Source: a virus
IMG/VR virus record: IMGVR_UViG_3300044961_000607
Location: 1-30,089 of that record
Direction: 5' to 3' (one strand)
DNA length: 30,089 nucleotides
Position numbers and translations under genes: made by a program. Under the pieces are notes generated by a model. That model saw only the letters and a list, made by a program, of their open reading frames with translations, had not been told where the DNA came from and did no database searches. Shown one piece after another: positions 7,566 through 28,998 of this stretch; the stretch's first letter is position 1; each line of letters starts with the position of its first letter.

Positions 7566-8615
7566 ATGCAAACGGTAGCGGCCAGCGTGATTCTGGAAGA
7601 TGCGCATCGCCTGATGGGCGAGGATGTGACGCAGCTCGATGAGCCGCGCCGGGAACAGGAGGCGCGCACCGGTTTGAGTCTGGCCTTGCAGGAAGTATGG
7701 GAAGCGTGGTGGTGGCAGGAGTTGATGACGCTGTCGCAGCAGAATCTGCGCGACACCTACGACAGCGCAAAGACTTACGCGGCGGGGGATGAGGTGTGGT
7801 GGCCGGGCACGAACAAGTATTACCAGTGCATTCAAGCCAGCACGGGCAAAAAGCCGGAGGACACGGAGTATTGGATCGAAGCGAGGCTGTCCTACACGGC
7901 AAATAATTTTGCGGCGGCCTACTATGATTACGGCGAACTGGCGCGTGACCCGGCCAGCGGTGTCATCTATGCGCGCATCGCCAACGGCATCAAGATTACG
8001 GGAGCAACCAACGTGTTTCTGGCGGGGATCGCGGAAACCGTGTTCACAAAATTCCCGGCAGGGTCCTATAACACGTCCGTGATTCCACCGGATGGGGGCG
8101 TGGTGGCGGCGGTGGGCGACTCATGGCAAAACGGTGATCCAGCGACGTATGCCTTTGCTTTTGCCATCCGCTACAACGCCACGGCGAAATTGTGGGTTCT
8201 GACCTCGGCATCGGCGGTGCATAACGTGTATGGCACCAGCCCTACGTTGGTGGGCACCTACAGCGCAGAATACAATTATGCCCTCGGTGCCAGCAACAAT
8301 CCCGCAGGCACGTTGTCGTGGGTGGATGCCGAGGCGCCACCGTCCACGAATTGGCAGGCAGTCAGCCCATTCATTCCATCGCTCAAAACCAATCGCAAGG
8401 TGCGGATGGTGTCCCGGCTGAAGCCCACGCAGACCAACAACCCGGGCGAGTATAACTTCATTGCGACAGCGGACGGCATCGAGTTGACGGAGATTCCCGC
8501 CACCACACCGTGGATTTGGGCGCGGCGCGTGACGCCGGTGCTGACGGGGGATGATTTCTCGGCGACCGCCACCTACACGGCCACGGACGCCCGCGAACTC
8601 GTGTTTGATTCCTGA
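7566..8615 (+). CDS. Putative head-tail adaptor (tail tubular protein A-like)
   Basis: A 349-residue protein starting 1 base after the previous stop. The N-terminus is helical (VILEDAHRLMGEDVTQLDEPRR, then ALQEVWEAWWW), resembling adaptor proteins that sit under the portal in T7/P22-type tails. A CBM5/12-like insert follows at about residues 70-105, with AGDEVWWPG, YYQCIQAS and PEDTEYW. The rest is beta-rich and ends with PWIWARRVTPVLTGDDF, a strand-rich end typical of tail tubular proteins. It lies between the capsid genes and the nozzle gene, though separated from the latter by the export block. Assignment is by pattern and order; alternatives include a tail-side receptor-binding protein. 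Confidence 0.5.
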   Translation: MQTVAASVILEDAHRLMGEDVTQLDEPRREQEARTGLSLALQEVWEAWWWQELMTLSQQNLRDTYDSAKTYAAGDEVWWPGTNKYYQCIQASTGKKPEDTEYWIEARLSYTANNFAAAYYDYGELARDPASGVIYARIANGIKITGATNVFLAGIAETVFTKFPAGSYNTSVIPPDGGVVAAVGDSWQNGDPATYAFAFAIRYNATAKLWVLTSASAVHNVYGTSPTLVGTYSAEYNYALGASNNPAGTLSWVDAEAPPSTNWQAVSPFIPSLKTNRKVRMVSRLKPTQTNNPGEYNFIATADGIELTEIPATTPWIWARRVTPVLTGDDFSATATYTATDARELVFDS

Positions 8616-8637: not shown

Positions 8638-8937
8638 ATGGCCCAATTCCTCAAAACCACAACGACAACGGCCGGACCAACGCCGCTTTCCAGCACGCTG
8701 CTCACGTGCCGCAAATTCTCGCTCATTGCCGCCAAGGGGCTGAACGGTCCCAGCGCCAGCCCGAATGCGGGCGTGGTGTTCATTGGGCAATCGGCGACCG
8801 CCGGGCAACAGCCTATTGAGATGAGTCCGGGCGATGAACGCAGCTTTGGTGACGCCAACGGGCCGTTGATGGACCTGAGCAAATTCTACCTGACCGTGGC
8901 CACGAGTGGCGACGGTGTGGTGGTCATTTACCACTGA
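8638..8937 (+). CDS. Small beta-rich virion protein, hypothetical
   Basis: A 99-residue protein. The frame is open upstream into the previous gene, but the ATG at 8638 lies 22 bases after that gene's stop and is the sensible start. The protein begins with a Thr-rich stretch (FLKTTTTTAGP), then short strands: FSLIAAKG, GVVFIGQSAT, PIEMSPGDERSF, KFYLTVATSGDGVVVIYH. Small single-domain beta proteins like this recur near tail genes in podoviruses as minor structural components. No enzymatic motif is seen. Function is inferred from position only. Confidence 0.6.
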   Translation: MAQFLKTTTTTAGPTPLSSTLLTCRKFSLIAAKGLNGPSASPNAGVVFIGQSATAGQQPIEMSPGDERSFGDANGPLMDLSKFYLTVATSGDGVVVIYH

Positions 8938-8943
8938 CACAGT

Positions 8944-10212
8944 ATGCAAGGCACGTATCGCGTGACGTTGGGCGGCGCCGCCCGTGGGCGGTGGGTGCGA
9001 TGGGTGGCGGTCGTGTGTGCCCTGGGGGCGGGCGCCGGCATGGCGCAAGAACGCGAGATCAACACCACGCCGTTCACCCGCACCTTTCTGCGCGCGACCA
9101 ATCCCTTGAGCGCGGCGGCTGCCCTGGGCTTTTCCACGAATGTAACGGTCGGCACGAACATCACGGTAACGACCTCGAACATCTATACGAGTTTTGACGT
9201 GCCATTCCTGACCATTGGCCAGGGGACCAATACGATGACCCTGACCCCGACCAACGGCAGCCTGGTGGCGGACGTGCCGTGGTATTTCCCCGAGGCCTCG
9301 GCGGGGGCTATCACGCTCGGCGGCGTGCGGCGCACGACCTGGCCGGAAGGCGGCACCAACATTTACACCGTGGGCAGCTTCAGCGGGGGAATCGTCCTTT
9401 ACACTTCGTTCCAAACAAACTTTGCGACCGTCGCCAGCCTGACGAACCTTGGCCTGTTCACGAACGGCTGGTTTGACGCCTCGTGGACCAGCACCAACGG
9501 CGCTGCGCTTGGCCTGGAAGCCTCCACCAACGGGGTGGACTGGTCCCAGGCAGAGGCCGGCACGAACAGCGTTTATTTGCGCCTAGTCGTTTCCCTGGGG
9601 TCGCCGGGGGGCGGCACCCCGGCGGTAAGCAACATGGTTATTCGCTCCATCGCGAACAAGGAAGCGTTTGGCGGAACCAACGATTTTCGGCGGACGTTGC
9701 TGCTGGCCGATCCGCCCGCTTCCGGCGAACAGGTCGCGAACAAAGAATACGTTGACGATGTGGCGCTACGCCGGGCCATGAGCTGGTCCACTCACCCCGC
9801 CGCTGCCCCCGTGCGCCTCCTCGGCCAGGAACTCCAGATCAGCGGCGAGTGGGCCATTCGCACGCTCGTAGTCAGCAACGAGCTGCGCGCCGTGCTCCAG
9901 TTCGGCGGGGCGACCATTGCGGAATTTTCCCCCGGCTTCACGGCGTTGACCAACGCCACGATTGACCCGGCCACTAACACGGCCTGGCTGACGCTGCGCG
10001 TCCCCACAAACGGCCTAACTCTGCCGTTGCGCGTGCTGATGGCAACGAACTTCACCACCGGCCCGTGGCGCTACGTTACCGCCACCAACGGCACCGCCGG
10101 GACCAACTACACCCTGAACGTCCCGCGCTCCCTGGTGCCGGATACGGCGTTTTTCTACGTCGGACGATCCAACGCGCCCGCCTACCGGCTGCCGGCGCTC
10201 ACCCTGCCATGA
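8944..10212 (+). CDS. Tail-fibre-like protein with an N-terminal signal peptide
   Basis: A 422-residue protein. Residues about 14-34 form a classical Sec signal: RGR-W-VR, then a hydrophobic core WVAVVCALGAGAG, then AGMAQE with probable cleavage after the Ala before Q. The mature part is beta-rich and loaded with Thr-Asn pairs, typical of exported Verrucomicrobiota proteins. Around residues 255-275 it has ADPPASGEQVANKEYVDD, matching the tail-fibre and collar motif that ends in NKxYVD. A signal peptide on a tail-fibre-like protein is odd, because virion proteins normally assemble in the cytoplasm. It may instead be an exported surface protein built from fibre modules. Its stop overlaps the next start as ATGA. 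It opens the exported-protein block. Confidence 0.65.
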   Translation: MQGTYRVTLGGAARGRWVRWVAVVCALGAGAGMAQEREINTTPFTRTFLRATNPLSAAAALGFSTNVTVGTNITVTTSNIYTSFDVPFLTIGQGTNTMTLTPTNGSLVADVPWYFPEASAGAITLGGVRRTTWPEGGTNIYTVGSFSGGIVLYTSFQTNFATVASLTNLGLFTNGWFDASWTSTNGAALGLEASTNGVDWSQAEAGTNSVYLRLVVSLGSPGGGTPAVSNMVIRSIANKEAFGGTNDFRRTLLLADPPASGEQVANKEYVDDVALRRAMSWSTHPAAAPVRLLGQELQISGEWAIRTLVVSNELRAVLQFGGATIAEFSPGFTALTNATIDPATNTAWLTLRVPTNGLTLPLRVLMATNFTTGPWRYVTATNGTAGTNYTLNVPRSLVPDTAFFYVGRSNAPAYRLPALTLP

Positions 10213-11117
10213 AACGTCGCGGCATAGCCTTTTTGAAGGCCAGCGCCTGGTATCTGGCCGCGCTCGCCTTGTGGCTTGGGCTGCTGCTCTCTGCGTCCGG
10301 CCAGTGGTTTGCCTACCGAACGCACTTCACGCACCACCCGGCCACCTACACGCCACCAGGAAGCCTCGCCCATCACCTGTGGACAAACTGGACGGCCCGC
10401 ACCAACGGACGCACGCCCGCGCTCCTGGCCAGCGTCACCAGCACGTCCGCCACCTGGAACACCAACTGGTTTTTCTACGGCGCGAGCAACTTTACGGCCC
10501 AGACGATCCACCGGACCAACACCGTGGACCATTACAGCCGGTTCCGCTGCACGGTGATTTCTCCCGTCCTGCTGCTCCAATGTGCCCATGCGTTCAACAT
10601 CGCCGCCGGCACGAGCGGAACGAATCTCGGCGTGGGCCAGTGGTTCAGCGTGCTGGACCCGACCAACGGGCTGCACTGGCGGCGCGTGGCGCACTCCCTG
10701 GGCCGCAGGGTCACGGACGATTACATCCTGTTTGCCATCACAAATCCGCTACCGGCGGAAGTGGGGGCGATGCGGGTAGCCCACTATCAGACCGTGACCA
10801 ACAAGCTGGGATTTCCGTTTGGCTTTGGACCACAAGTGCCGATCACATCTCTCTGTCAGCATTACCTGAACATCGGGGCGCTGGGGTTTTACCTGGACGG
10901 CCACGGTGTGGAGGACGGCGACAGTGGCAGCCCCACCGTCCTGCTAATCGGGGACGAACTGGTTTCCGTGCCGTGGGGTTTAACGTCGGCCTCCGTGTCA
11001 AATTTGACGCAATTTCTGGCGGACGTGAACACGTTGACCACGCTGGCCGGCTTCAGCACCAACACCTATCCGGTGCGGATCGCCAACCTGTCCGAATGGA
11101 ATCCACCTACACCATGA
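10209..11117 (+). CDS. Secreted trypsin-fold serine protease
   Basis: A 302-residue protein beginning at the ATGA overlap at 10209. Residues 1-35 are an N-terminal signal or anchor: MKRR, then LAALALWLGLLLSASGQ. The chymotrypsin-like triad is visible: His127 in ISPVLLLQCAHA, Asp171 in TDDYILFA (fitting the D-I-A-L motif) and Ser239 in GDSGSP. The spacing of 44 and 68 residues is short but acceptable for a compact S1-type enzyme. The likely activity is hydrolysis of peptide bonds outside the cytoplasm. It is followed by an Fn3 lipoprotein overlapping by 4 bases, so the two are probably coupled. Possible roles include cleavage of cell-surface proteins during lysis or entry, processing of a virion protein, or exclusion of other phages. 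The protease call is strong; the role is unknown. Confidence 0.8.
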   Translation: MKRRGIAFLKASAWYLAALALWLGLLLSASGQWFAYRTHFTHHPATYTPPGSLAHHLWTNWTARTNGRTPALLASVTSTSATWNTNWFFYGASNFTAQTIHRTNTVDHYSRFRCTVISPVLLLQCAHAFNIAAGTSGTNLGVGQWFSVLDPTNGLHWRRVAHSLGRRVTDDYILFAITNPLPAEVGAMRVAHYQTVTNKLGFPFGFGPQVPITSLCQHYLNIGALGFYLDGHGVEDGDSGSPTVLLIGDELVSVPWGLTSASVSNLTQFLADVNTLTTLAGFSTNTYPVRIANLSEWNPPTP

Positions 11118-11491
11118 GCACAACCAGAAGCGGCGCAAGGCCATTGCAATATCTGACGGCGGGGTTGCTGCTGTTGGGCTTGGTAGCCGGATGCGCGGCG
11201 CAGACGGTCACACTGCGCTGGAACGCGCCGACCAACGCCGCCGAAGCCGGGGTGACGGGCTACCGCGTCTGGCTGGCGCCCGCCGGCACGACCAACTGGT
11301 CCGTGCTGGGAGCGGCGGCTTCCACCAACTACGTAATGCCGTTCAGCGCCACAAGTTTTGGGGACCGCTACTTCGTGACGGCGACGAACGCGGTGGGGTT
11401 GGAAAGCCCGCCGTCCAATGTCGCCACCAATCTCATCCCGCGCAGCCCGGAAAACATGCGGCTGAACCATAACCTGTCGTTTCCGCCTTGA
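11114..11491 (+). CDS. Fn3-domain lipoprotein
   Basis: A 125-residue protein starting at ATG 11114, which overlaps the protease stop as ATGA. Residues about 12-28 form a lipoprotein signal ending in LVAGC, so Cys would be lipidated and the protein membrane-anchored. The mature part is one fibronectin type III domain: VTLRWNAPT at the first strand, GVTGYRVWLAP in the middle and FVTATNAVGLESPPSN at the end, the usual Fn3 landmarks. Fn3 domains mediate binding in phage tails and in secreted enzymes. Coupled translation with the protease suggests the two act together at the envelope. Confidence 0.75.
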   Translation: MSTTRSGARPLQYLTAGLLLLGLVAGCAAQTVTLRWNAPTNAAEAGVTGYRVWLAPAGTTNWSVLGAAASTNYVMPFSATSFGDRYFVTATNAVGLESPPSNVATNLIPRSPENMRLNHNLSFPP

Positions 11492-11494
11492 GTC

Positions 11495-11821
11495 ATGGAC
11501 TACACGCTGACGTTGCTGAACTTTGATGCCTGGTTACAATCGTTGCCGACCGGGGCATTGCTGGTCGTGGCATGTCTCGCGTTGGGCTACGTGCTGAAAT
11601 GGTTGCCGTGGGTGGAAAACCGGTTCATTCCGGTGTTGGTGGTAGTGGCGGGCATGGTGATGGCGCTGCTGCTGGCGGAACGCGGCGATCTGCCGCTGCG
11701 CGCGTGGGTCGTGCGTCACCTGATCCTCGGCCTCGTGAGTGGATGCGTCGCGTGGCTGGTGCATAACAAGTTGCTGAAACGCATCGAAACCAAACTGTTC
11801 GGAGAGAAGGAAAACCTATGA
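11495..11821 (+). CDS. Holin-like membrane protein
   Basis: A 108-residue protein with three hydrophobic segments: about residues 20-36 (GALLVVACLALGYVLKW), 44-60 (IPVLVVVAGMVMALLLA) and 74-90 (LILGLVSGCVAWLVHN). It ends in a charged tail KRIETKLFGEKENL. Size, three segments, the NRFIPVL start of the second segment and the GLVSG motif in the third resemble phage holins, which open the inner membrane at a set time to start lysis. Its neighbours are lipoproteins and an XhlA-like protein, consistent with a lysis cassette. The stop overlaps the next gene as ATGA. Confidence 0.65.
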   Translation: MDYTLTLLNFDAWLQSLPTGALLVVACLALGYVLKWLPWVENRFIPVLVVVAGMVMALLLAERGDLPLRAWVVRHLILGLVSGCVAWLVHNKLLKRIETKLFGEKENL

Positions 11822-12231
11822 AGGCAAAGCGTGTGTTTCCACCGGCGGGCGTGCTGCTGGCGCTGGCGCTGGCACTGATTCCCGTGTGGCTGGCCGGCTG
11901 CGGCACGACCGGGGGCGCGAATGTGAGCACGGACGGCACGAGCGTTGGCGGCGAAGTGGGGTGGAATGTATCGAGCAACGCCGCGGTGAATGTGTCCGGC
12001 CATTACAACACGGCGACGGGCCAGTGGATGGTGGCCGTGGGGGTGACGTTCCGCGAAACGCCGCCGCCGGATGTGATTGCGGCCCTGGAGGCGGCGGGCG
12101 CGGTGCCGGGCAAAACGGGGCGGACGTGGATTTTCCCGGCGGGCATGAAGCCCACCGACAACCAGGTAATCAAGGCGCTGACCGCGTGCGCCACGGCGCC
12201 CGGGGGGTATGTGCTGATGCCGGTCCAGTGA
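11818..12231 (+). CDS. Small lipoprotein, possible outer-membrane spanin-like subunit
   Basis: A 137-residue protein starting at the ATGA overlap with the holin-like gene. Residues 1-27 form a lipoprotein signal with the lipobox LAGC. The mature part is Gly/Asn/Val-rich (GGEVGWNVSSNAAVNVSGHY, then QWMVAVGVTFRE), which suggests beta strands. It ends with a segment that looks like a small globular domain (PDVIAALEAAGAVPG...TWIFPAG). Small lipoproteins next to holins are often o-spanins, but this one is longer and less Pro-rich than usual, so that call is weak. It is certain only that it is exported and lipid-anchored. Confidence 0.65.
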   Translation: MKAKRVFPPAGVLLALALALIPVWLAGCGTTGGANVSTDGTSVGGEVGWNVSSNAAVNVSGHYNTATGQWMVAVGVTFRETPPPDVIAALEAAGAVPGKTGRTWIFPAGMKPTDNQVIKALTACATAPGGYVLMPVQ

Positions 12232-12235
12232 TGCC

Positions 12236-13030
12236 ATGAAAGCCGCCGTCGCCTTTGGCCTCAATCTGGTCAACCCCGAGCATTATCAGGGCTGGGGCGG
12301 GCCGTTGACGGGCTGTTGCCCGGACGCCAGCAGCATGGTGGCGGTGGCGGGGCAACGGGGCTATGACGTGGCAACCAGCCGGTTGAACACTTACGCGGGT
12401 CCGATGACGGCGCTGGGCCATACCATCCCGCCCTACCGGCTGGTCATGGACGCAACAGCGGCCAATTGGATTGCGTTGCACCGCAAATATGCGGAGCTGG
12501 CGCAACCGGGGGACTGCTTTGTGTTCAGCTTTTCGGGTCATGGCGCCCGGAGGATTTACGTCCTCAGCGCCACGGAATCGTTCTGTTTCTCGGAGCGGAT
12601 GATGGATGACGCCGAGTTCAAGGATTTGATGGCGTTGTGGCCGGCGGGCGTGCGGGTGCTGTATGTGCTGGACTGCTGCTACGCGGGCGGGATGCACCGC
12701 AATCTGGGCTTTCTGGGCCGGCCCAAGACGGCGGGGCTGCAATTCAGCCGCCAGCCCAAGCCGGACTATGCGCCGACGCGCGCGGCAGTGCGGGCGGACA
12801 TTGCGATTTGGGCCGCGTGCGCGGCGGAGCAGGTGGCGTTGGATGGCCAGTATAACGGGGCGTTCACCGGGAGCCTGCTGGCGATGCTGGAGCAGCATCC
12901 ACTGGCCGACGTGCCCACGCTGCACGAGCATCTGCGGGGGTTCATGAGGCGGCATTTTCCGAACCAAACGCCGCAGTTGAATTTTCTGGGGCAACGGCAG
13001 GTATGGGCCGGCCGTCCGGCCTGGACGTAA
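12236..13030 (+). CDS. Caspase-family (metacaspase-like) peptidase
   Basis: A 264-residue protein with the caspase p20 fold landmarks. The N-terminal strand KAAVAFGLNLV is followed by LTGCCPDASSM (the L-x-G-C-x-x-D-A motif). The catalytic His is H102 in FVFSFSGHGAR, and the catalytic Cys is C148 in VLYVLDCCYAGG, a DCCHSG-type motif with Y and A in place of H and S. Family members are clan CD cysteine peptidases, usually cutting after Arg/Lys in metacaspases. No signal peptide is seen, so it should act in the cytoplasm or virion. It lies between a holin-like/lipoprotein pair and an XhlA-like gene, where an endolysin would be expected. Roles could be capsid or polyprotein processing, host killing or lysis control. 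The family call is strong and the biological role unknown. Confidence 0.82.
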   Translation: MKAAVAFGLNLVNPEHYQGWGGPLTGCCPDASSMVAVAGQRGYDVATSRLNTYAGPMTALGHTIPPYRLVMDATAANWIALHRKYAELAQPGDCFVFSFSGHGARRIYVLSATESFCFSERMMDDAEFKDLMALWPAGVRVLYVLDCCYAGGMHRNLGFLGRPKTAGLQFSRQPKPDYAPTRAAVRADIAIWAACAAEQVALDGQYNGAFTGSLLAMLEQHPLADVPTLHEHLRGFMRRHFPNQTPQLNFLGQRQVWAGRPAWT

Positions 13031-13048
13031 CGGGAGCCAGAGAGTGCA

Positions 13049-13327
13049 ATGAAAGACCTCGAAACACGAGTGGCGATGGTGGAGCGCGACGTGCATGAAC
13101 TGCGCGAGTTGCGCGGGTTGATCCACGTCATGGACAAGAAACTGGACGTGTTGGCGGCCCGCAAAGAATGCCCGGACCCCAACCGCTGCCTGGCGCTGGA
13201 GCCGCGGCTGGCCAGTCTGGAGGCGACGCGCAACAAGTTCCTGGGCGCGATGGTCGTTTGCACCGGACTGGGGACGGTGGCGGGCGGACTGGTGGCCGCC
13301 CTATTGCAACGGGTGCTGAACTCATGA
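13049..13327 (+). CDS. XhlA-like coiled-coil membrane protein
   Basis: A 92-residue protein starting 18 bases after the caspase stop. The N-terminal 60 residues are a charged helix with heptad character (LETRVAMVERDVHELRELRGLI, then LDVLAARKE). A C-terminal membrane segment follows (residues about 65-88, FLGAMVVCTGLGTVAGGLVAALL). This layout matches XhlA-type phage lysis accessory proteins, which sit in the inner membrane and cooperate with holins. It supports reading the preceding genes as a lysis cassette. The stop overlaps the nozzle ATG as ATGA. A spanin-like or anti-holin role is also possible. Confidence 0.55.
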   Translation: MKDLETRVAMVERDVHELRELRGLIHVMDKKLDVLAARKECPDPNRCLALEPRLASLEATRNKFLGAMVVCTGLGTVAGGLVAALLQRVLNS

Positions 13328-15201
13328 ACCGACATCGCACACATGGTCCGCTGGACGACGTGCCCGAGATTGTGGGGGACGCCGGCTGGCAGCGGGTGGA
13401 CATGGCGACCGACCCGGCGTTGCTGCCGGAGCAGACGCTTTCGGTCAGCGAAAACCTGCGGTTTGATCAAGCGGGCACCACGGTGCGCAAGGGATTGGGG
13501 CGGCAGTTTCCAGCCGGGACCAGCCCGGGCACGATCCTGCACGCGGGGGTTTTCAAGCCCGACCGCGGGGATGACCAGATTGCGCTCGTGACGGCAAACA
13601 CGCTCGTGTTGTTCGCGCCCGGGACGCAGACGCTCACGGTATGCAATTTCCCCGCCGGCGAGACCATTGGCGCGGCGGATCGGATTGACACCATCCAGGC
13701 GGGCGTGGGAAGCGGGACGTTGCCGACGCTGTATGTATTGCGCGGGTTTGGCAGTGACGTGCTCAAGTATGACGCGGGCACCATCACCACGGACGCGACG
13801 TTTCAACGCAGTGAATTCGGACTGTTTGTGCAGGACCGCATTGTGGCCAATGCCGACACGCAAAGCGTGGGGGTCAGCGACTTCCTCGACTTCGGCACCT
13901 GGAGCGTGTTGAACCAGTTTCAAATCCTGAAAGGCGGGGATGATTACCTGGTGGCGTTTCTGCCCTACCAAAAGGACTACGTGTTGATCGGGACACGCAA
14001 GGCGTGGTTTATCGCGTTCTTTGACCCGACCGTGGGCAGTGGGGGTTACACCGGGGCGATCAAGGACAGCAGCTTTCTGCGGCAGTTGACGCGCGAGGCC
14101 GGACCGGTGGGGCCGCGCGCGGTCATCGAGGCGATGGGCTACATCTGGTTCATCACGGATGGAGCCATTTACGCTTTCATGCCGCAGTTGGACAACGAGC
14201 TGACGGTGCTGGGCAAGCCCATCAGCGCGGAGCTGGAGCCGTTGATGGCGCGCATGAGCGTCAAATATGCCCGGCGCGCGTGCGTGGCGCGGTGGGGGCA
14301 CCGGCTGTATTTTGCGCTGCCGATTTCCGACGAGCCGGTGGCGGTAAGCGACATCAGCATCGAAAATTACACGACGCTGGGGGCCGATTTGCCGTTTGAC
14401 CTGCCCACGAGCCTGGCCGCCGGCTCGCTGGCCACCGTGACCACCGCCGCGCCCCACGGACTGGTGGCGGGGGACAGCGTGCTGCTGTCCGGCGTGGTGA
14501 CATCGGGGTTGAACGGCGAAAACACGGTGGCGGCGGTGTTGTCCGCCACGGCGTTTGTCATTGCGTGCGATGTGACCAGCGTGATCGTGGGCAGCGATGC
14601 GAAAGCGCAAAAGCTGGCGCGGCGAAACAACCGCATCGCCGTGTATAATTTGAGCACAAAGGGCTGGGAAAGCGTGGATACGTTGCCAAGCGGTTTGTAT
14701 GCGGACTGGCTGGTAACGGCGGATTACGGGAGCCAGCGCCGGCTGTGGGTGGTGGATGAAACGTATGGGCCGGCGCTCTACGAGGAGCGTGAAGCGGACG
14801 AAGTGGGCGACATCGTGGGCGGAGTGTCGCTGCCCTGCGATCTGCCGGTCGAACTGAGCGAGGCGAATTTTGCCACCGCGCCAATCCCGGGCCGGCTGCG
14901 GACGCGGGCGTTACGGTGGGGCGCGTTTCCGCGGCGCATCAAGGAGTGCGAGGCGCGGGCCACGCTGCCGCCGGGCAGCGAGGTGACGCTGAACCTGCTG
15001 GCGCGCACGCCGAATAACCGTTTGTGGACCGGCACGCGGGTGTTTCGGTCCACGGATTTCAAGGTGGCGGATGCGCCGTTGCGCAAGCTGTGCGGCGAAC
15101 GGGCGCTGGAAGCGCAAGTGGAATTGTTGACCACCAGCGGAAGGCCGACGTTCCGCAGTGTGGCGCTGGACACCCGAGCCGTCGGCGTCAATCCCCAGTA
15201 A
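13324..15201 (+). CDS. Tail nozzle protein (tail tubular protein B-like)
   Basis: A 625-residue protein starting at the ATGA overlap at 13324. It resembles nozzle/tail-hub proteins that form the lower tail tube of podoviruses. It opens with LLPEQTLSVSENLRFDQAGTTVRKGLGRQF, the usual N-terminal statement of bound input coordinates, then runs as a beta-propeller-like series of short strands (YVLRGFGSDVLKYD, YVLIGTRKAWFIAFFD, YIWFITDGAIYAFMP). A typical phage insert domain occurs at about residues 360-415, with ATVTTAAPHGLVAGDSVLLSG. The C-terminal part is beta-rich. The gene order with fibre and internal proteins downstream agrees. No catalytic motif is seen. Confidence 0.7.
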   Translation: MNRHRTHGPLDDVPEIVGDAGWQRVDMATDPALLPEQTLSVSENLRFDQAGTTVRKGLGRQFPAGTSPGTILHAGVFKPDRGDDQIALVTANTLVLFAPGTQTLTVCNFPAGETIGAADRIDTIQAGVGSGTLPTLYVLRGFGSDVLKYDAGTITTDATFQRSEFGLFVQDRIVANADTQSVGVSDFLDFGTWSVLNQFQILKGGDDYLVAFLPYQKDYVLIGTRKAWFIAFFDPTVGSGGYTGAIKDSSFLRQLTREAGPVGPRAVIEAMGYIWFITDGAIYAFMPQLDNELTVLGKPISAELEPLMARMSVKYARRACVARWGHRLYFALPISDEPVAVSDISIENYTTLGADLPFDLPTSLAAGSLATVTTAAPHGLVAGDSVLLSGVVTSGLNGENTVAAVLSATAFVIACDVTSVIVGSDAKAQKLARRNNRIAVYNLSTKGWESVDTLPSGLYADWLVTADYGSQRRLWVVDETYGPALYEEREADEVGDIVGGVSLPCDLPVELSEANFATAPIPGRLRTRALRWGAFPRRIKECEARATLPPGSEVTLNLLARTPNNRLWTGTRVFRSTDFKVADAPLRKLCGERALEAQVELLTTSGRPTFRSVALDTRAVGVNPQ

Positions 15202-15204
15202 TTT

Positions 15205-16401
15205 ATGGCACAACTATCCAAAGGCGAGACTTTCACGGATGTCAGCCCGGGCAAAACAGTCACGAGCAGCCGGCTGAATAACCACGTGGACGGCGCGGTG
15301 TTGTTGAACGGCGCGGTGCTGGACCAGACCGAGAAGGCCGTTACGGTGCCCGCCGACATGGTGTTGTTGGGGGATTCGACCCTGCCCGCGAGCGCCGCCC
15401 CGCGCAAGGTGCAGCTTACCAACCTGCTGCCGGAAATCATCCGGCAGGGGGTGCAGCAATACGTGGGCACGGACTCCGGCGGGGCCAACGCCTATGTGGT
15501 GGCCCTGTCGCCGGCGGCCACGGCCTACACGGCGGGCATGGTGGTGCGGTTCAAGGCGGCCAACGCCAACACGGGCGCCAGCACGCTCAATGTGAACGGG
15601 CTGGGGTTGAAAAACATTTACACGCGGGCGGGCACGGCGCTGGCCGCCAATGACATTCTGGCCGGGCAGGTGTGTGAGTGCGTCTATGATGGCACGCAGT
15701 TCCAGCTCATGTCGGCGTTGGGCGCGGGCCAGGTGACGGCGGCGCAGAGCGCGGAGGCCAACCGGCAGGGGGTGCATCAGTATGCCGTGGACGGTGGGGC
15801 GGCAAATGCCTACGCGGTGACGCTGACCCCGGCGGCCACGGCCTACACGGCGGGCATGGTGGTGCGGTTCAAGGCGGCCAACGCCAACACGGGCGCCAGC
15901 ACGCTCAATGTGAACGGGCTGGGGGCAAAAGACCTGCGGAAGGTGGTGGCGGGCGCCGTGGCCGCGCTGGCGGCGCGGGATGTCCAGGTGGCCGATCTGG
16001 TGGAGGCGGTCTATGATGGCACGCAGTTTCTGCTGACCAGCCGGGTGCGTTCGTGGGATTTTGTCAGCGCCGACACCAACGTGCCCGCCGCGTCCGCCAA
16101 TGTGGACATTGCCCACGGGCTGGGCGCGGTGCCAAACAAATTGCACGTGGTGCTGGTGCAAACCGATGCGACGGCGCGCAACGGCTACGCGCAAAACGAT
16201 CAGGTGGAACTGTTGTCCATCCAGGGGACCACGAACAGCCCGGCGTTTGCGGTGAGCGCGGATGCCACCAACGTCACCATTGCGCGCAGCAACAACACGC
16301 TCGCCTACATGGTGCCGAAGGGCGGGGGCGCGCCGGTGGACCAGCACGCCAACATGGTGACAAACACCTACTTCAAAATCCGAGTGTATGCCTCGCTCTG
16401 A
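15205..16401 (+). CDS. Tail fibre with duplicated domain
   Basis: A 398-residue protein. The N-terminus (FTDVSPGKTVTSSRLNNHVDGAVL) looks like a virion-attachment part. Two tandem copies of a domain of about 100 residues follow, each with ANAY, TAYTAGMVVRFKA, NTGASTLNVNGLG and VYDGTQF. This is a well-known phage tail-fibre repeat unit. The last 100 residues (IAHGLGAVPNKLHVVLV to TYFKIRVYASL) form a different distal domain, a candidate receptor-binding tip. The two repeats share a 96-bp exact nucleotide match, so the duplication is recent or is kept alike by recombination. Its 3' end overlaps the next gene by 14 bases. Confidence 0.75.
   Translation: MAQLSKGETFTDVSPGKTVTSSRLNNHVDGAVLLNGAVLDQTEKAVTVPADMVLLGDSTLPASAAPRKVQLTNLLPEIIRQGVQQYVGTDSGGANAYVVALSPAATAYTAGMVVRFKAANANTGASTLNVNGLGLKNIYTRAGTALAANDILAGQVCECVYDGTQFQLMSALGAGQVTAAQSAEANRQGVHQYAVDGGAANAYAVTLTPAATAYTAGMVVRFKAANANTGASTLNVNGLGAKDLRKVVAGAVAALAARDVQVADLVEAVYDGTQFLLTSRVRSWDFVSADTNVPAASANVDIAHGLGAVPNKLHVVLVQTDATARNGYAQNDQVELLSIQGTTNSPAFAVSADATNVTIARSNNTLAYMVPKGGGAPVDQHANMVTNTYFKIRVYASL
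15511..15606 (+). repeat. Direct repeat copy 1, 96 bp exact, within tail fibre
   Basis: Identical base for base to 15829-15924. The two copies are 318 bases apart, exactly 106 codons, so both are read in the same frame and encode the same 32 residues. The match ends at a T/G difference at 15607/15925. Confidence 0.95.
15829..15924 (+). repeat. Direct repeat copy 2, 96 bp exact, within tail fibre
   Basis: Second copy of the repeat starting at 15511. A shorter exact match of about 20 bases further on (15682 and 16009) is spaced by 327 bases, so the second domain copy has gained three codons after the long match. Confidence 0.95.
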
Positions 16402-16822
16402 AAATCTTATCACGCTGCCGGGGCCGGAGCTGCTGCGCCGCGCCGAGTTGCTGCCCCTGCAACCGCGGGACCAGGCCGAGGCGCAGGCGCTGCCCGCCAA
16501 ACTCGACGCGCTGCGCGCCCTCGCAGCGGAGGATGGTCACATGGTGATCAACCCGACGCATGTGATGGTGGGGCCGGAGGGCAACATCATCGGCTACCTC
16601 AGCCTGAACGGTTTGCCGGTGGTCCATGCGTGGTTTGATACCAAACACAAGCACGTGCGGGATTCGCTGACGATGATCGAGCACGGCCAGACCATTTTGC
16701 GGCAGCAGGGCGTGCGCGGCTTTGCCGTGGCGTGTGCTGCCGAAAGCCCGTTCACGCCGCATCTGCCCCGGCTGGGCTTTCATCAACTGGGCGCCACCGT
16801 GCTCTGGCACAAATACCTGTAA
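16388..16822 (+). CDS. GNAT-like protein in the internal virion gene cluster
   Basis: A 144-residue protein whose ATG lies 14 bases inside the end of the tail fibre gene. The first 50 residues are helical and charged. From residue 50 on there are alternating strands and helices: MVINPTHVMVGPEGNIIGYLSLN, then LTMIEHGQTILRQQGVRGFAVAC, and a C-terminal LPRLGFHQLGATVLWHKYL. The L-G-F ending and the G-x-I-x-G-Y-L strand resemble the GNAT acetyltransferase fold. A full acetyl-CoA loop (R/Q-x-x-G-x-G/A) is not obvious, so it may be a structural relative. Small GNAT-like proteins are found beside internal virion proteins in several podoviruses. Confidence 0.5.
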   Translation: MPRSENLITLPGPELLRRAELLPLQPRDQAEAQALPAKLDALRALAAEDGHMVINPTHVMVGPEGNIIGYLSLNGLPVVHAWFDTKHKHVRDSLTMIEHGQTILRQQGVRGFAVACAAESPFTPHLPRLGFHQLGATVLWHKYL

Positions 16823-19087: not shown

Positions 19088-22000
19088 ATGAGCAAAACGC
19101 TGGCTGCCATTCGGGCCAAGTATCCGCAATACGCCCATGTGCCGGATGAAGATCTGGCGGTGCGCGTGGCAAGCAAGTATCCGATCTATCGCCAGCGGGA
19201 CGCCGAGCTGGATGCCATCGTCAAGGCGTGGGTGCCGCCCTCGATGCGGCCCATTGCGCCCGGGGGCGAAGATTCCCTGGCCCCCGCGCCGCCAGAACCG
19301 GTGGCGTGGCCAACGGAGAGCGACGAACTCACCCGCTTACGCCAATTACGGGAATTCTACGGCACGCCCGAGGGACAGGCCAAGCTGGACGCGGCCAGTC
19401 GCGCGTTTGGCGAGGTGACGGGCGCCAGCGTGGTGGGTCCGGTATTGCACCGCGCCGCGAAGTTGACCGAGGCGGCAGCGCGCGATGTGGTGGGGGACAT
19501 GGCGGCGGGGTTGGTGGCCCGGGATGACCAAGAGTGGCAGGCATTGCGGGAGCGCAACATGCAGGCTTTTGCGCGCGACCCCGAGGCGGAATTGCCCGGC
19601 CGGGCCGCGTCGCGCGAATACCTGAGCCGGGGTCAGCGGGTGGCCGAAAATGTCGGTCTGCTGGGAGCAACGCTGCCGGTGATGGCTGGTCAGGTGGCGG
19701 GGGCAACGATGCTGGGAGTGCCGGCTCCCCTGGCGCTGGCCGCCATGATGGGCACGACGGAGGTGGGCGAGGTGGACCCGGTCGGCGCCGTGATGGGTCT
19801 GGGATTGCCCGGTGCGACGCAGATGGGCAAGCAGGCAGTGGCGGCGGGCTTGGAAAAGGCGGGCATTGACCGGGTGGTGGTGGAAGTGGTCAGCCGCGAC
19901 CCGCTGCGCCTCAAGGGCAAGGTGGTGCAACGGCTGGGGGGCATCGAGATTTCCAACGATGCGTTCCGCAAAGTGTTGGAGAATGGCGGCGGCCTGCTGG
20001 CGGCGAACACCTACATGAACGCTTTGAGTGCGCCGCAAGTGTTGGCGCTGCCCGAGGAGGAGCGCACCGAGGCGGCGATGAACATGGTGGCGAACAACCT
20101 GGCCATGAGCGTGGCGGGTCTGTTCGAGCAGCGCCCCACGAGCATCACGCTCGAAAACTTGATGCCCAAACTGCGGCAGCAGTGGCGGGAGGCGAACACG
20201 CCGCCGTATCGCGCCCGGATGGGCCAGTCCGGGCCGGCGGAGGAAGGTGCGCCGGTTCGCCCCGGGCCTTATCCCGCGCTGCCGGAACGTGGGGTTGGCC
20301 GGATGCCTTCGGAACCGCCGCCCGCTTCGCCTTCCAACCTTCCGACTTCCCCGGAGCGTCCCGCCCCTGCGGTTCCAGCGGGCGCTCCGACTTCTCTTTC
20401 CCCCGAGGCCACGGTGCCACCGGCATCCAGTGCAGGGGGCACACCCACGGCGGCGCCCGCGGGGACCAAGGCCGCCGGTGAACTACCACCGGCGGCCAAT
20501 GCGGACGCGGGCGAGGCGGTGGCCAACATGGTGGCGCGGCGGTTGAGGTTGGGCGAAACCGTGACGCCCGCGCAGGTGAGGGATGAAGGGTTGTCGTTCG
20601 GGTTGGATGAACGGCAGTCCGGCGAATGGGCGGAACTCGGGGCGGCCGAGGTGGCGCGCGAGATTGCCCAAGACGCCACGATGAGCAACCGGGACAAGTT
20701 TGCGGCGCTGGTCAGTCTCTACAACCGGATGCCCGCCCACGGCACGCGCACGGTGGAAACCAAGGCGATGCAGCAATACAGCACGCCCCCGCCGCTGGCC
20801 TTCGTCGGCGGGGTGCTGGCGGACCTCCCGGGCGGCGGCGTAGTGGCGGATTCCACCGCCGGGCATGGGATGCTGACCATCAGCGCCAGCCCCAGCGCCT
20901 ACCTGGTGTTGAACGAACTCAGCGGGGAACGTCACCAGCGGCTGCGGCGGTTCCTGCGCGGCAGGGCAGGCGAAAGTCCGGGCTTGGATGCCTTGAGCGG
21001 CGACTTCTGGCGGCTACTGTCCGAGCGCCGGCCGGATCGCGTCGCCCTGAATCCGCCCTTCGGCAGCGTGCTCGATCCCGCGACCGGCGCCCCCAAGAAA
21101 TTCCCCATTCTGAATGCGGCCACCGAGGCCAAGACGACGACAAGCATTGATCTGGCGATCGCGCTGAACACGTTGGAAGCCATGACGCCGAACGGCAAAG
21201 GCTTTGCCATTATCGGGGCCAAGACGGGCACCCCCTACGGCGGCACGTTTGGGACCGACCAGGCGCGCGCCGAGGAATATCGGCGGGCGGCCATGCTGGA
21301 ATTCTTCGAGCGGTTCAACGTGGTTGACTGGTTCACCATCGGGGGCGACCTTTACCGGAAGATGGGGGCCGCGTGGCCGGTGGACATGATCGTGGTCCAC
21401 GGCAAGGGCAAGACGCCCAGCGCGCAAGCGGGGGGGCTGGTGCGTCCGTGGGTGAAGCCGCCGCGCGTCATCGAAACGTGGGAACAGCTCGGTCAACTCA
21501 TCGAACAGTATGAAACTCGAACAAGCCCAGGAAAAGCTGGCGGAGGCGCTGGCGGAACACGTTCAAGCCCGCCTGCGGGAGCAGGAGCAACCACTGGACC
21601 GCGAGAGCCTGGGGTATCTCCTGCACGACCTGAACGACCTCCTCAAGGCAGCCGGCCCGGGGGCGGCACTGCAACCCCGGCACCTGCGCCAAGCCCAAAC
21701 CCTACTCCTGCCCCACCTGCGCAGCGCCCTGGAGATTCCGGCGCAGGTATTGGCAAGGGAACTCCCGAACCGGCTGGGTCAGTGGCTCCGGGCGGAACCC
21801 CAGGAGGGAAGCCCGCAGCGCCCCCAGTGGGTGGAACAGGGGCGGTGGCTGCTGGATCAGGCCAGGACAACGCGGGGAAGTCTGAGCTAGATCAGGTCAA
21901 GGGACTATGGCAGCAACTCGCTGCGCTCAATGGGGATGCGGGCCAATTCGAGGCGGCAATCAAAGCGGCGGAGGGTGGGTATCCCGTCAACCTGAAAGAC

Positions 22001-25000
22001 TTGGCGAGGCAAATTCGGGACGCGATTGCGCAGGCGCAAAAGGTTCGCAGCGGCACAACGGCCACCCCCAAACCGCCTCAAGTCGGGACTCCAAGCCCGA
22101 AACCGTCTGTCCCCGTTGAGGGTTTGCCGGCCTCGCTGATGGTGCCGTATCAGTCGGTGAGCAAGGGGCCAAGCCTCAACCTAGTGGCCCCACGCAACAT
22201 TGCCAACCAGATGCAGGCAGCGGCGCGGCAACTGGAGCAGGAAGTCGGAATGCCGATTGACGAGTATCTGGCGGCCAAGCTCGGGCGCGATGTCAAAACC
22301 CTCCACTCGCAATTGGCGGGCGCCCAGGTGGACACGGCGGCGCTCGCGATCCGCAACATCGAACGCGGCAGCGCGCTGATCTGCGCACACGAAACCGGCG
22401 TTGGCAAGGGCCGCGTGGTGGCAGCCCTGATCGAATATGCCCGGATGCGCAACCTGATGCCCGTATTCATCACGGCCAAGCCGAACCTTTACGAGGACAT
22501 GCTGGCGCGCGACCTGCCGGCGCTGGGCAACAAGGAGTTCAAACCGTTCATCACCAATACCAACTACGCCTACGAAGATGCGCACGGGCGCGAGGTAAAG
22601 AGCAGCGGCAACGCCGCGGCTCGTGTGGCCGAGATGGAGAGCGTGGTGCGCACGGGCAACCTGCCCGGCGGCGCGCAGGGCATTTTCACCACCTACGACC
22701 AACTCAAAAGCGACAAGCCGGCGGGCTGGTCGGAAACCGCCAAGGAGAAGTTTGCGCGCAAAGGGGGGCGCGAAGGTAAAAACGCCAAGGCGCGCCCGGA
22801 TGGTCCCCGATTTGCCATGCTACGGGCGATTGCGCCCCGGGCCATCTTTATTCTGGATGAGGCGCACCTGGCCGCCGGGCCGGGGAGCGAGGTGAATTTG
22901 TCCCTGTCCACCATCCTCCCCCAGGCAAAAGGCGTCTATTACAGCAGCGCCACGTTCGCCAAGCGGCCGGACAATTTGGGCTTGTATGCGCTCGGCACGC
23001 TGATGAAGCGCACGGGGCTGAACAGCGCCCAGATGACGGAGGCATTGCAAAAGGGGGGGGTGCCGTTGCAGCAGGCATTGACCTCGATGCTGGCCGAGTC
23101 GGGTGAGTTGATCCGGGTGCAGCAAGATTGGGCCGGCGTGGAAATGAGGTTCGAGAGCACGGCGGCCAACCCGGCAGCGATGGCCCGCGAAGTCGAGGCG
23201 GCGGACACCTACACGAGTTTCATCCGCGATTTGATCACGCTCAACAAGCTGATTAACCAAGCGGGGAAGGCGTTGGAGGATGGCGAGAACCAGGTGCGGG
23301 CGGACGAGCAGCAAGTCAAATTGCAGGACATCAACCCGATGGCCCGGCTGTTCAACTTGTCCAATCAATACCTGTTCGCCTTGCGGGCCGACGCCGTGGC
23401 GGACAAGGCGGTGGCCGAACTCAAGGCGGGCCGAAAGCCGTTCATTCACGTCCACAACACGCTCGAAGGGCCGTTGCTGGACCTGCGGGCGCGCAAGCTG
23501 CCCATGAATTTTCAGGGCATTCTGTTGCGCGAAATGCAGAAGATGCTCGTGCTGACCCTGCGCGACCCCAAAGTGGAGGGGGGGAAGCGGCAAGTGGAAT
23601 TGAAGCCCGAGGATTTGCCGGACGGCGGCAAGTTCTACCGGCAGCTCGAACGCCAAATCCTGGCCGCGGACCTGAGCCAGTTCTCGATTTCGCCCATTGA
23701 CCACATCAAGAAGAAGATTCAGGCGGCGGGCTACAGCATCGGCGAAATCACGGCGCGGGACGGCGAGGTGGACGACGCGGGCGGCGAGGTCAAGATCGCC
23801 AAGCGCGAGAAGGCGTCGCGCAACAAGATTCTCAAAGCCTATAACGACGGAGAATTGGACGTGTTGCTGATCAACGGCAGCGGGGGCACCGGGTTGAGTG
23901 CGCACACCGATCCCAAATTCAAAGACCAGCGGCAGCGCGTCTATATCGAGGGGCAGCCGGCGCCGGACATCAATGACGAGATGCAGGCGATGGGGCGCAC
24001 GATGCGCAGCGGGCAGACCAGCAAGCCCAAATACATCTTTCTGAGCACGGCGTTGGCGGCAGAACGGCGCTTTGCCACGATGCTGCGCGGCAAGATGACC
24101 AGCCTGAACGCCAACACCACGGCGGAGGGCGAATCCGGGCTGACCCAGCAAGAGGGATTTGCCGAGGACATTTTCAACCAGGTGGGGGATGACGTGGTGT
24201 TTCGGGTCATGCAGGCCAATCCGGTGGAGGCCGCGCTGATGGACCTGGCTATGGAGGCCGACGATGCAGATTTGACGGCGGGGTTTGCGCGTTACGCCAC
24301 CGGGCGCTTCGTGTTGCTGCCCAACGCGGACGCGCAGCGGTTGTGGGATGAAATCATTGCGGAATACCAGGACGAGATCACGCGCCTGAATGAGGAGGGG
24401 CAGAACCCGCTGCGCGCCACCGCCGAGGATTTGCGGGCGCAAACGATCGAGACAACCGAACTCACCGCCGCCACCGGCAACACCTTGTTTGACGGGGCCG
24501 CTGTTTTGGAGAAAACGATGATTCGTCCTCCCAAGGCGCCGCCCACGCACGACGAAGCCGTCCAGCGGGCGCGCGACAACATCCCGGCGACCAAGCAGCG
24601 GGTGCGCGAATGGTTGGAAAAGAGCAAGGCCGCCGAGGCGGAGCGCGTGGCCGCGGCGCAAGCGCGCGGCCAAACCGGGCAGCAGGTGGAGCGCATCAAA
24701 GCGAACATGCAGGCCGTGCGCGAGGCGGTGATCGAGGCGTTTCGCAAGCAGGGCGACACGTTCGGCGTGGACAAGCTGGGCGATGGCTCGAACAGTTTCT
24801 ACGGTGTGGCGGCGGAATTGAGGCTGGCGGAGAAGCAGGCCAGCGATTTCAGCAGCCTCAGCCGCCAGGAGCTGATCCTGACGGCCAACACCTTTGCGGG
24901 TCGGTATCGCATCCCGTTGTCCAAGCTGTTCAAGAACGGCGAGGAACAGCCGTTGCTGAACCTGCTGGACGAGGACGCCGCGGCAGAACAGTTCAACACC

Positions 25001-28000
25001 ACGGCGGAAAGTAGTGCGGAACGGTATATCGTGACCGGCAACCTGCTGCGCGGTTGGGAGGCGGCAGACCAGGCGACGGCGGGTCGCGAAATGGGGAGGC
25101 CCAGGGTGGCGATCTACACGCGGCACGATGGCAGCCTCAACACGGGCGTGCTGATGCCGCCGGGATGGACGCCGGGCGCGGCAACCGAGCCGGTGCAGGT
25201 GATTACGGACGCCTTTGAATTTGCCGCCGCGGTGCAGGCGCAAACGCCGTTACGGTCACTGCCGACCAGTGCAGTGCATCCAGTGGAGGTGCGCGACGGG
25301 CGGCTGCTTGTGCCGTCCTCGGGACAGGGCAAATTGTTATGGGGCGACCCGCAGTTCTCCGAGTTCTTTGTGCGTCCGCCCCAGCAAATTCAGGGCAATT
25401 TCGTGGGCGTGATTGGTGTGGACCCGGCCCGGCTGTTTGAATTTCTCAAAGCGAAGGGCGTGCGACTGGTCAACAATCCTTCGGAATCGGCCGCCATGCG
25501 CGGCCCGGGAGGCGGCGGCGGTGGTGGCGTGGCAGCGCGGGGTGCATTTGTGTCCGGGGCCTCGAAAGCCCCAGGCAGCGTGCCGCCGACGGTGAATTTT
25601 GGCGGAATGAATCTCGTGCGACCGCTGGAATTGCCGGAGCTGGTGCGCATTGCCCGCGAGTTGGCTGGCGCGGTGCCCAAGATTCGCAAGTTTCCCCAGC
25701 GCGGCGGCAAGCAAACGCTCGGGCACTTTGGGGATGGCATCATCACGCTTGATCCGCGCATTTTCAAGGATGCCGAAACGGCGGCCAAGGTGCTGGCCCA
25801 TGAGTTGGGCCACCTGGTGGACTATCTGCCGCACGAAACGCTCAAACGCGGCAACCTGCTGGGCCACCTGCTGGCGCTGCGCGGCTTTCTGCGGCACAAC
25901 TTCGGCCCGCTCAACAACAAGGTGCTGCGGGATGAACTGCTGGCGTTGACCATGTGGTGGCGTCCGTATGACCCGGTGAACGACTCGCCAACGTATGTGA
26001 AGTATCGGCAATCACCCGAGGAGCTGTATGCGGATGCGCTCTCGGTGCTGTTCAACGCGCCCAACGAACTGGAGACGCGCGCCCCGGCATTTTACAAGGC
26101 ATTCTGGGAGAAGCTCGGCAACCGGCCCGAGGTCGAAACGGCGCTGTTTGCCATTCAGGAGTTGCTGAACAAGGGCAAGCTGGAGACGGCCACCGACCGG
26201 GAGGCGCGCCTGCTGGCCGGGTTTGCCGAGGGCGAGGCGCGTTGGAAATCCGCCGTGCAAGCCCGGGCGCAGGCGGCCCGGTCCTGGGAAGGCTGGTGGA
26301 CGCGGCTCGGCCAGGAATTCTACTGGCAATTTTTCCCGCTGGAGCAGCGGGCCAATCGCTTGGAGAAAGCAGGCGTCAAGCTGCCGCTCGAAAAGGATCC
26401 GCGGGTGTTCCTCGATGATCTGGGATTCAGCGATGTGGCGGTAATGCGCTGGGGGAGGACCATTCACGAAAAGGTCGTGCAGCCCATCGAATCTGCCGGT
26501 CTGACGCTGGTGGATGCGGGCAAAATGCTGTTCTACGAGCGCATCCTGGAAGGCGACCGGGCGGGCCTCGCCAATCCGGGCGGGATGACACCGGAAGCGG
26601 CCCGGCTCGGATTGCTGAAAATGAATCTGGAGCTTGGCTTGGGCAAAATGACACTGCTGCGCGCGGCGCTGGACCGGTTCCATGCCGAGGTGTTCAAGCT
26701 GGCCGAGGTGGCCGTCGCGGTGGGCGCTTACAACCGGAGCACTTTCGAGCGCGTCATCAGGCCCAACAAGGGCACGTATGCGACGTTCGCCGTGCTGGAT
26801 TACGTGGATGATTGGATGCCGCCGGGCATCAAGGAGCAGGTCGGCACGCTCAAGGACGTGGCGAACCCGTTTCAGGCGACCATTCTCAAAAGCATCGGGT
26901 TGATCCACCTGATTGCGCAGCAGCGCGCCAAGAACAAGACGGTGGAGTTCCTTACCACGTTTTTCCCGGGCGACCTGGCGCGGGCGCCCGGCGACGGAAC
27001 ACCGGCAGCGCGCAAGGGCAAGGGTGTGTTCATGCGGTTGGAGAACGGCAAACCGGTGTATTATTACACCGACCCCTACATTGCCGAGGCGTTCGACAAA
27101 GGCAATCCGCGCACGCTGTGGCCCATCGTCAAGGCGGCGGATGGTGTGTTCCGCAAATTCGTGTATCCCCTGATCATCACCTACAACCCCGCCTTCCTCT
27201 ACATCATGTCGCCGTTGCGCGACATGCAGCGCACGGCGCGCAACCTGCCCGGCCTCCGGTTCAGCGTGGGGGGCCTGCCCGTTGAGCAGGCGCGCAATCT
27301 CCGCCAGACGGGACAACGCTACACCGGTCAACACACCTACACCACGCCCTCCGGGCGCACTTACACGGGCCAGGGCAGCCCGCTGATCCGCGAAATGGAG
27401 GCCATGCTGGCACTGGGCACGCCGTTCGACCAGTTCATCCGGGGCAATCGGGACGATTTCATGGCCGACCTGCTGCGCCGGATGCGGGTGCTGCCCGACG
27501 GCGAGGTGGAGGGATGGTTCGAAAACGTAGTGTGGCTGCCCCTTCGCACGGCGCTGGATAAGCTGGAATTGGGCGGGCTGACGCTGGATGCGCTGGCCAA
27601 GACTTCAGCCTATTCCATGCTCAGGAAGCAGGGCCGGTCTTCCCGCGAGGCGGGTGTGTGGGTGCGCAACAATGCGGGCCTCCCCAACATCAACAAGAAG
27701 GGGCTGCTGGTGAAGCAGGTCCGGGCGCTGGTGCCCTTCTGGAACGTGTTTGTGCAGGCGTGGCGGGCCGATCTGAAGCTGATGACGCACCCAACCACGC
27801 GGGCTGGGTGGTGGTTTCGCTACTTTGCCAGCAACGGGCTGGCGCGGGTGCTCCTGGCCGTGGGCGCTACGGGAGCGTTGGGGGCGGCACTCAAGGAGTT
27901 GTTCGACGGCATCGGCGAGTATGACAAAACGAATTATCTGTCGGTGCCGGTGGGCGCAACGGATGGGGCGGACTTCGGACGCAAAACTGTGTATCTGCGC

Positions 28001-28915: not shown

Positions 28916-28949
28916 GCGTTGCAAGCCTTTGACAGCAAGGGGTCGCGGG
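28913..28949 (+). other. Inverted repeat between the late operon and the attachment core
   Basis: CCCGCG (28913-28918) pairs with CGCGGG (28944-28949). TTGC (28919-28922) can extend the stem with GCAA (28935-28938), leaving a 5-base bulge. There is no T-tract after it, so it is not a clear terminator. It may end the late transcript or be part of the integration complex. Confidence 0.35.
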
Positions 28950-28953
28950 TAGT

Positions 28954-28998
28954 CTCTTAATCAATTGGTCCAAGGTTCGAGTCCTTGCCGAGGCACCA
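28954..28998 (+). other. attP core: 3' half of tRNA-Lys(CUU)
   Basis: The stretch reads as a tRNA 3' half: anticodon loop CTCTTAA with anticodon CTT, 3' anticodon strand TCAAT, variable loop TGGTC, T-stem CAAGG/CCTTG closing loop TTCGAGT, acceptor strand CCGAGGC, discriminator A and encoded CCA. No matching 5' half (an acceptor strand pairing as GCCTCGG, or a D-arm) lies upstream, so this is not a functional tRNA gene. Phages that integrate into tRNA genes carry such a half to restore the gene. The adjacent integrase and the flanking repeats make this the phage attachment core. Confidence 0.85.

Follow-up and report, generated by a model that had tools for sequence, protein, structure and literature searches.

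A gene for a caspase-type protease lies in the lysis slot of this phage, at the position where its relatives carry the endolysin. The DNA analysed, hereafter the window, is the whole of IMG/VR record IMGVR_UViG_3300044961_000607 (30,089 bases, with no longer parent record); it holds no recognised terminase or replication genes and represents a fragment of a phage genome. The block of interest corresponds to the slot in which a podovirus-like family, with an SU10-type capsid and an adaptor-nozzle tail, carries its fibre and lysis genes. Caspases are the proteases that run programmed cell death in animals, and the recurrence of phage-encoded members in lysis modules, here at the endolysin position, suggests that regulated proteolysis may take part in host lysis.

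All seven genes that a sequence-only reading had placed between 8944 and 13327 were found as open reading frames at those positions, on the plus strand, as are the genes flanking them. The slot is bordered on the left by an adaptor-like protein (7566..8615; phmmer against the adaptors of relatives, L155 3.5e-17 and L156 1.6e-18), followed by a 99-aa protein (8638..8937) known as an open reading frame alone, with no Pfam or PHROG family match. The block then opens with a 422-aa fibre-like protein whose N-terminus is hydrophobic (8944..10212) and a 302-aa protein with a signal-like N-terminus and trypsin-like motifs (10209..11117). These are succeeded by a 125-aa lipoprotein (11114..11491), a holin (11495..11821), a 137-aa lipoprotein directly 5' of the caspase (11818..12231), the caspase itself (12236..13030) and a 92-aa coiled-coil protein (13049..13327). 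The right border is the tail nozzle gene (13324..15201), which is similar by tblastn to the nozzle genes of relatives (L079 2.6e-16, L111 8.3e-13) and, at 4e-7, to the 'head closure' gene of phage C75C1. Four-base ATGA overlaps occur at 10209, 11114, 11818 and 13324, while the other block junctions are gaps of 3, 4, 6 and 18 bases. This coupling had been taken to mark one unit. The overlaps and short gaps are real, but the packing is equally tight through the nozzle and the remaining late region (spacings of 3, -14, 1, 13 and 1 bases); the coupling therefore does not distinguish the block and was dropped as a sign of a discrete unit.

The neighbours of the caspase are characterised to differing degrees. 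The holin matches PF16079 (8.9e-10, above the curated cut-off) and the PHROG holin family phrog_1129 (4.5e-9), and has three transmembrane (TM) segments, at 21, 53 and 80. Both lipoproteins have a clear lipobox, LVAGC in the first and WLAGC in the second; the Fn3 domain claimed for the first corresponds to a PF00041 match below the cut-off (E 0.026), and the second has no family match. The 92-aa protein has the architecture expected of its 'XhlA-like' label, a coiled coil with a C-terminal TM segment at 77, but neither Pfam, PHROGs nor NCBIfam links it to XhlA, it has no other family match, and no alignment was obtained with the analogous protein of caspase contig L013.

The caspase passes the curated cut-off of PF00656 (C14) by a wide margin (70.3 bits vs 21.4; E 2.5e-19), in keeping with its first assignment as a caspase-family peptidase with C148. 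Its dyad, H102/C148, sits in SGHG and DxC motifs. An AF2 model built with 23 phage homologues (pLDDT 81.5, pTM 0.82) finds GSU0716 (3bij) as the nearest solved structure in Foldseek (3.4e-20), followed by metacaspases, paracaspases and caspases, and sequence searching agrees. The H/C dyad is kept in 52/52 phage caspase sequences, and likewise in 28/28 of the loci retrieved by patterns that omit it. In metacaspase MCA2 of T. brucei, a putative pocket for basic substrates is lined by Cys92, Asp95, Ser156 and Asp211 (PMC4357240; PMC6426788). The phmmer alignment pairs these with C27, D30, S100 and D146 of the window caspase, residues that are conserved. Because these predicted S1-pocket residues are conserved, the enzyme would probably cleave after Arg or Lys. 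As a signal peptide is absent, its site of action should be the cytoplasm unless it is released. Overall, it appears to be an active metacaspase-type cysteine protease, with fold and catalytic residues intact.

The identity of the slot emerges from relatives. Alignment of the window portal with that of C75C1 retrieved at least 573, among which 13 distinct relatives with both adaptor and nozzle visible were compared. In 10 of the 13, the adaptor-nozzle interval is a lysis cassette. Nine have a fixed order: an optional fibre, a 63-71-aa TM protein, a 57-aa TM protein, usually a lipoprotein of ~50 aa, the gene at the endolysin position, and the nozzle; in some relatives, a fibre gene lies between the last two. 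The endolysin position is held by an Amidase_2 in L094, L106, L111 and L115, and by an uncharacterised 187-aa protein in L097, L098, L100, L120 and L129. The tenth relative, L107, has an M15/VanY peptidase immediately 5' of the nozzle. The window thus shows holin, lipoprotein, caspase and coiled-coil TM protein where relatives show TM (read as the holin), TM, lipoprotein and endolysin, with its 137-aa lipoprotein in the same relative position as their ~50-aa one. The remaining relatives depart from this order. L079 has a fibre, a lipoprotein and a glycosyltransferase-like gene in the interval, while in L075 and L077 the adaptor is followed directly by the nozzle. Just upstream of the adaptor, L075 has genes for a two-TM protein, another small TM protein and a putative lipoprotein, with no recognised endolysin there. 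The sequence-only reading had looked for the seven genes to stay together, rather than scattered, in related phages. This expectation is partly contradicted, as a caspase is found in 0/40 portal relatives and the other slot genes of the window have no detectable homologues among them.

The 187-aa family is found at L164:11983-12543(-), L165:8031-8594 and L163:4732-5277(-). It has an invariant H136 and an SEGC motif, and no Pfam family or PDB match. The motif recalls L,D-transpeptidases, which we take as a lead only, and the family is a candidate for an undescribed endolysin family. A separate gene of the window, for an acetyltransferase-like protein of 144 aa (window 16388-16822), is placed 3' of the fibre gene; L075 and L077 have a similar-sized gene likewise placed.

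Searching IMG/VR with caspase alignments brought up about 60 contigs, 51 of them non-redundant, that encode active-looking caspases; some are possibly misassigned or host-derived. When the caspase, trypsin-like, nozzle and capsid proteins were each run singly against IMG/VR, in a mode that finds close relatives only, no match was obtained. Several of the contigs display lysis modules. L013 has holin-like, caspase and coiled-coil TM genes, which is the window order minus the lipoprotein. L030 has SLT lysozyme, lipoprotein, caspase and holin-like genes, and L018 has genes for a coiled-coil TM protein, a small TM protein, a lipoprotein and a tail-lysozyme domain, and then a caspase gene with an ATGA overlap. 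The caspase follows a two-TM and a GH25 gene in L047 and an NlpC/P60 gene in L028, overlaps a PHROG endolysin (4.9e-18) in L043, and lies 0.75 kb from an Amidase_2 in L071 and 2.3 kb from a GH108 in L074; lysis modules are also seen in L009 and L011. The holin-like genes of caspase contigs are of other or unrecognised types, none of them PF16079. As these examples had been chosen by eye, whole contigs were searched for seven endolysin families, which were present in 11 of 42-43 caspase records. The distance from caspase to endolysin is 2.5 kb or less in 5 of the 11 (1.3 expected, P=0.005) and 1 kb or less in 4 (0.57 expected, P=0.0015), P values that are approximate, since the families were partly chosen after viewing the neighbours; L043 was left out of the count, its endolysin being missed by the seven families. 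Small TM or lipoprotein genes are likewise more frequent near the caspase (30/191) than far from it (8/121, p=0.011). On the phage caspase tree the lysis label requires 11 changes, at least 9 of them on supported branches, and the linkage has therefore been gained or lost many times. It is a tendency and not a rule, because ~40/51 phage caspase loci show neither a recognised endolysin nor a recognised holin at a distance of up to two genes; some adjoin terminase or portal genes, or lie in genomes of 100-480 kb.

Three side observations concern the same contigs. In L020-L026 (viral or host contigs) the caspase stands in a conserved string, preceded by a gene for a secreted L,D-transpeptidase-like protein and followed by Hsp20 and ClpS-like genes. 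DUF1353-like or thermonuclease-like genes repeatedly adjoin phage caspases (L008, L030, L064, L066, L070). A lipoprotein with endonuclease/exonuclease/phosphatase-like sequence is encoded two genes 5' of the caspase at L009:8455-9321.

The location among tail genes could also be explained if the caspase were a virion maturation protease that processes a tail or head protein. It does lie between adaptor and nozzle, and some phage caspases adjoin terminase or portal genes. However, the corresponding interval of relatives holds lysis genes but no maturation protease, and elsewhere the linkage of the caspase is to holins and endolysins, which makes such a role the least probable of those considered, with a slight chance at best.

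With the slot a lysis cassette in most of the relatives compared and caspases recurring beside lysis genes in unrelated phages, the suggestion that the block is a lysis cassette is supported. The accompanying statement that it lacks an endolysin applies to the 30-kb fragment: the slot proteins have no endolysin match in Pfam, PHROG or NCBIfam, and profiles built from the endolysins of relatives match nothing anywhere in the 30,089-base window. On one explanation, holin and endolysin lyse the host in the ordinary way, the endolysin is encoded elsewhere in the genome, and the caspase is in the slot by coincidence. A 30,089-base fragment without terminase or replication genes leaves room for this, as do L075 and L077, whose adaptor-nozzle interval likewise lacks a recognised endolysin. 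Coincidence nevertheless accords poorly with an exact slot match and with a linkage that recurs across unrelated phages, and we regard it as improbable. At the other extreme, the endolysin might have given way to the caspase, perhaps joined by the exported trypsin-like protein, the host being opened by holin and proteases; host envelope or division proteins could, for example, be cut and host autolysins complete the opening. If true, the phage would encode its own equivalent of caspase-pore cell death. Such proteolytic lysis in place of an endolysin, as first proposed for this block, departs from the pattern in other phages that carry a caspase in the lysis region, where a muralytic enzyme usually adjoins it (L028, L030, L043, L047, L071, L074), and its chance of being correct is small. 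Because a muralytic enzyme is also present in most lysis-linked cases, the caspase is more likely an addition to a lysis module than a replacement for the endolysin.

The exported proteins of the block offer a different explanation. The 302-aa protein had been described as a secreted trypsin-fold protease. The residues H127, D171 and S239 (in GDSG) are indeed present in trypsin-triad order, but the fold has no profile or structure match: no homologue or profile was found in Pfam, PHROG, NCBIfam, the PDB or by tblastn, and a single-sequence model is unusable (pLDDT 36). Its motifs make a trypsin fold likely. The 422-aa protein has no Pfam, PHROG or NCBIfam family match; it may be a fibre, given an NKEYVD motif and the fibre-gene position that it holds in common with genes of L160 and L165 and with the 450-aa protein of C75C1.

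Three exported proteins of the block have no homologues in Pfam, PHROG or portal relatives, and together with the caspase they could be late accessory (moron) cargo of a variable slot, acting on the host rather than in lysis. Such cargo might serve host takeover, block host death or defence proteases, or benefit the lysogen. The phage is probably temperate: an integrase gene on the minus strand (PHROG 3.9e-16) continues into a tRNA-Lys(CTT)-like sequence (window 28925-30087) resembling a 3'-half attachment site. An exact copy of the 45-base tRNA-Lys 3' end was not found in the bacterial genome collection, and bacterial genome scans with the portal gave no match. Positions 19088-28693 encode a polyvalent protein of 3201 aa that combines a strawberry-notch-type helicase (PF13871, PF13872) with a methylase-like motif (NPPF) and a zincin-like one (HELGH).

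Accessory genes also gather preferentially in lysis regions. Phage caspases are sporadic and found in many gene contexts, and the many loci without a lysis neighbour, their absence from the 40 portal relatives and the long branch of the window caspase (2.05) all count against a lysis role. Bacterial gasdermin operons, moreover, employ caspase-like and trypsin-like proteases (PMC9612521). Set against this are an endolysin linkage above chance and a gene order that recurs in unrelated phages, and the accessory reading, all its options for the cargo together, is rather unlikely, at somewhat less than one chance in three.

The reading that we favour, at a little below an even chance, is that the caspase is a late lysis-module protease that cuts proteins at the inner membrane and, with the holin, hastens failure of the envelope. 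It would be made late, together with the holin, and cut its targets after Arg or Lys on the cytoplasmic side of the inner membrane. By analogy with five other phage caspases that have their own C-terminal TM tail anchor (L026, L047, L050, L052, L055), the neighbouring tail-anchored coiled-coil protein, to judge from its architecture, may bring the enzyme to the membrane. The target could be a lysis protein, which would be processed, or an envelope or division protein, which would be cut, and caspase and holin would then trigger or hasten envelope failure. The murein itself would most likely be cut by an endolysin beyond the fragment or beyond recognition.

Laboratory phages have not revealed such caspases, as three caspase queries against 50,697 GenBank phage records gave only one match, in an unannotated 485-kb uncultured phage. 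A search of the open-access literature, with subscription papers and preprints outside its scope, found no description of caspases in phage lysis modules. Viral caspases in BFVD at E<=1e-3 are mainly from giant eukaryotic viruses, with none from a tailed phage; the giant DNA virus caspases and metacaspases are virus-encoded and have the fold seen here, but they have eukaryotic hosts and no lysis cassette. The window caspase shares its fold, H/C dyad and acidic S1 pocket residues with prokaryotic metacaspases or orthocaspases (Geobacter GSU0716, 3bij) and eukaryotic TbMCA2. In contrast to these, it is phage-encoded, single-domain and in a lysis slot, and each bacterial plasmid homologue in the comparison belongs to a larger protein.

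Caspase-type proteases and membrane pores are the core of animal programmed lytic death and of some bacterial defences. In bacterial gasdermin operons, caspase-like or trypsin-like proteases are encoded next to a protein that forms membrane pores, and lysozyme or amidase genes accompany them in some cases (PMC9612521). These operons serve in anti-phage defence with gasdermin as the pore, whereas the window has a holin; an operon of this type was rejected, as no slot protein matches gasdermin in Pfam. The nearest functional precedent is LypABC of Caulobacter (PMC13236601). This protease-containing system is required for the lysis that releases gene transfer agents, in a setting where a search found no holin-endolysin genes. 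As proposed here, proteases control lysis of a phage-derived particle producer; unlike the window with its holin, the system is host-encoded and CARD-NLR-like, with a trypsin-like peptidase and ATPases and no caspase. Compared with holin-endolysin(-spanin) cassettes, the window has the holin above the Pfam cut-off, an adjoining lipoprotein (not identified as an o-spanin), a tight late operon and the genome slot of its relatives, but no endolysin in its 30 kb; at the muralytic position it has instead a caspase and a coiled-coil TM protein.
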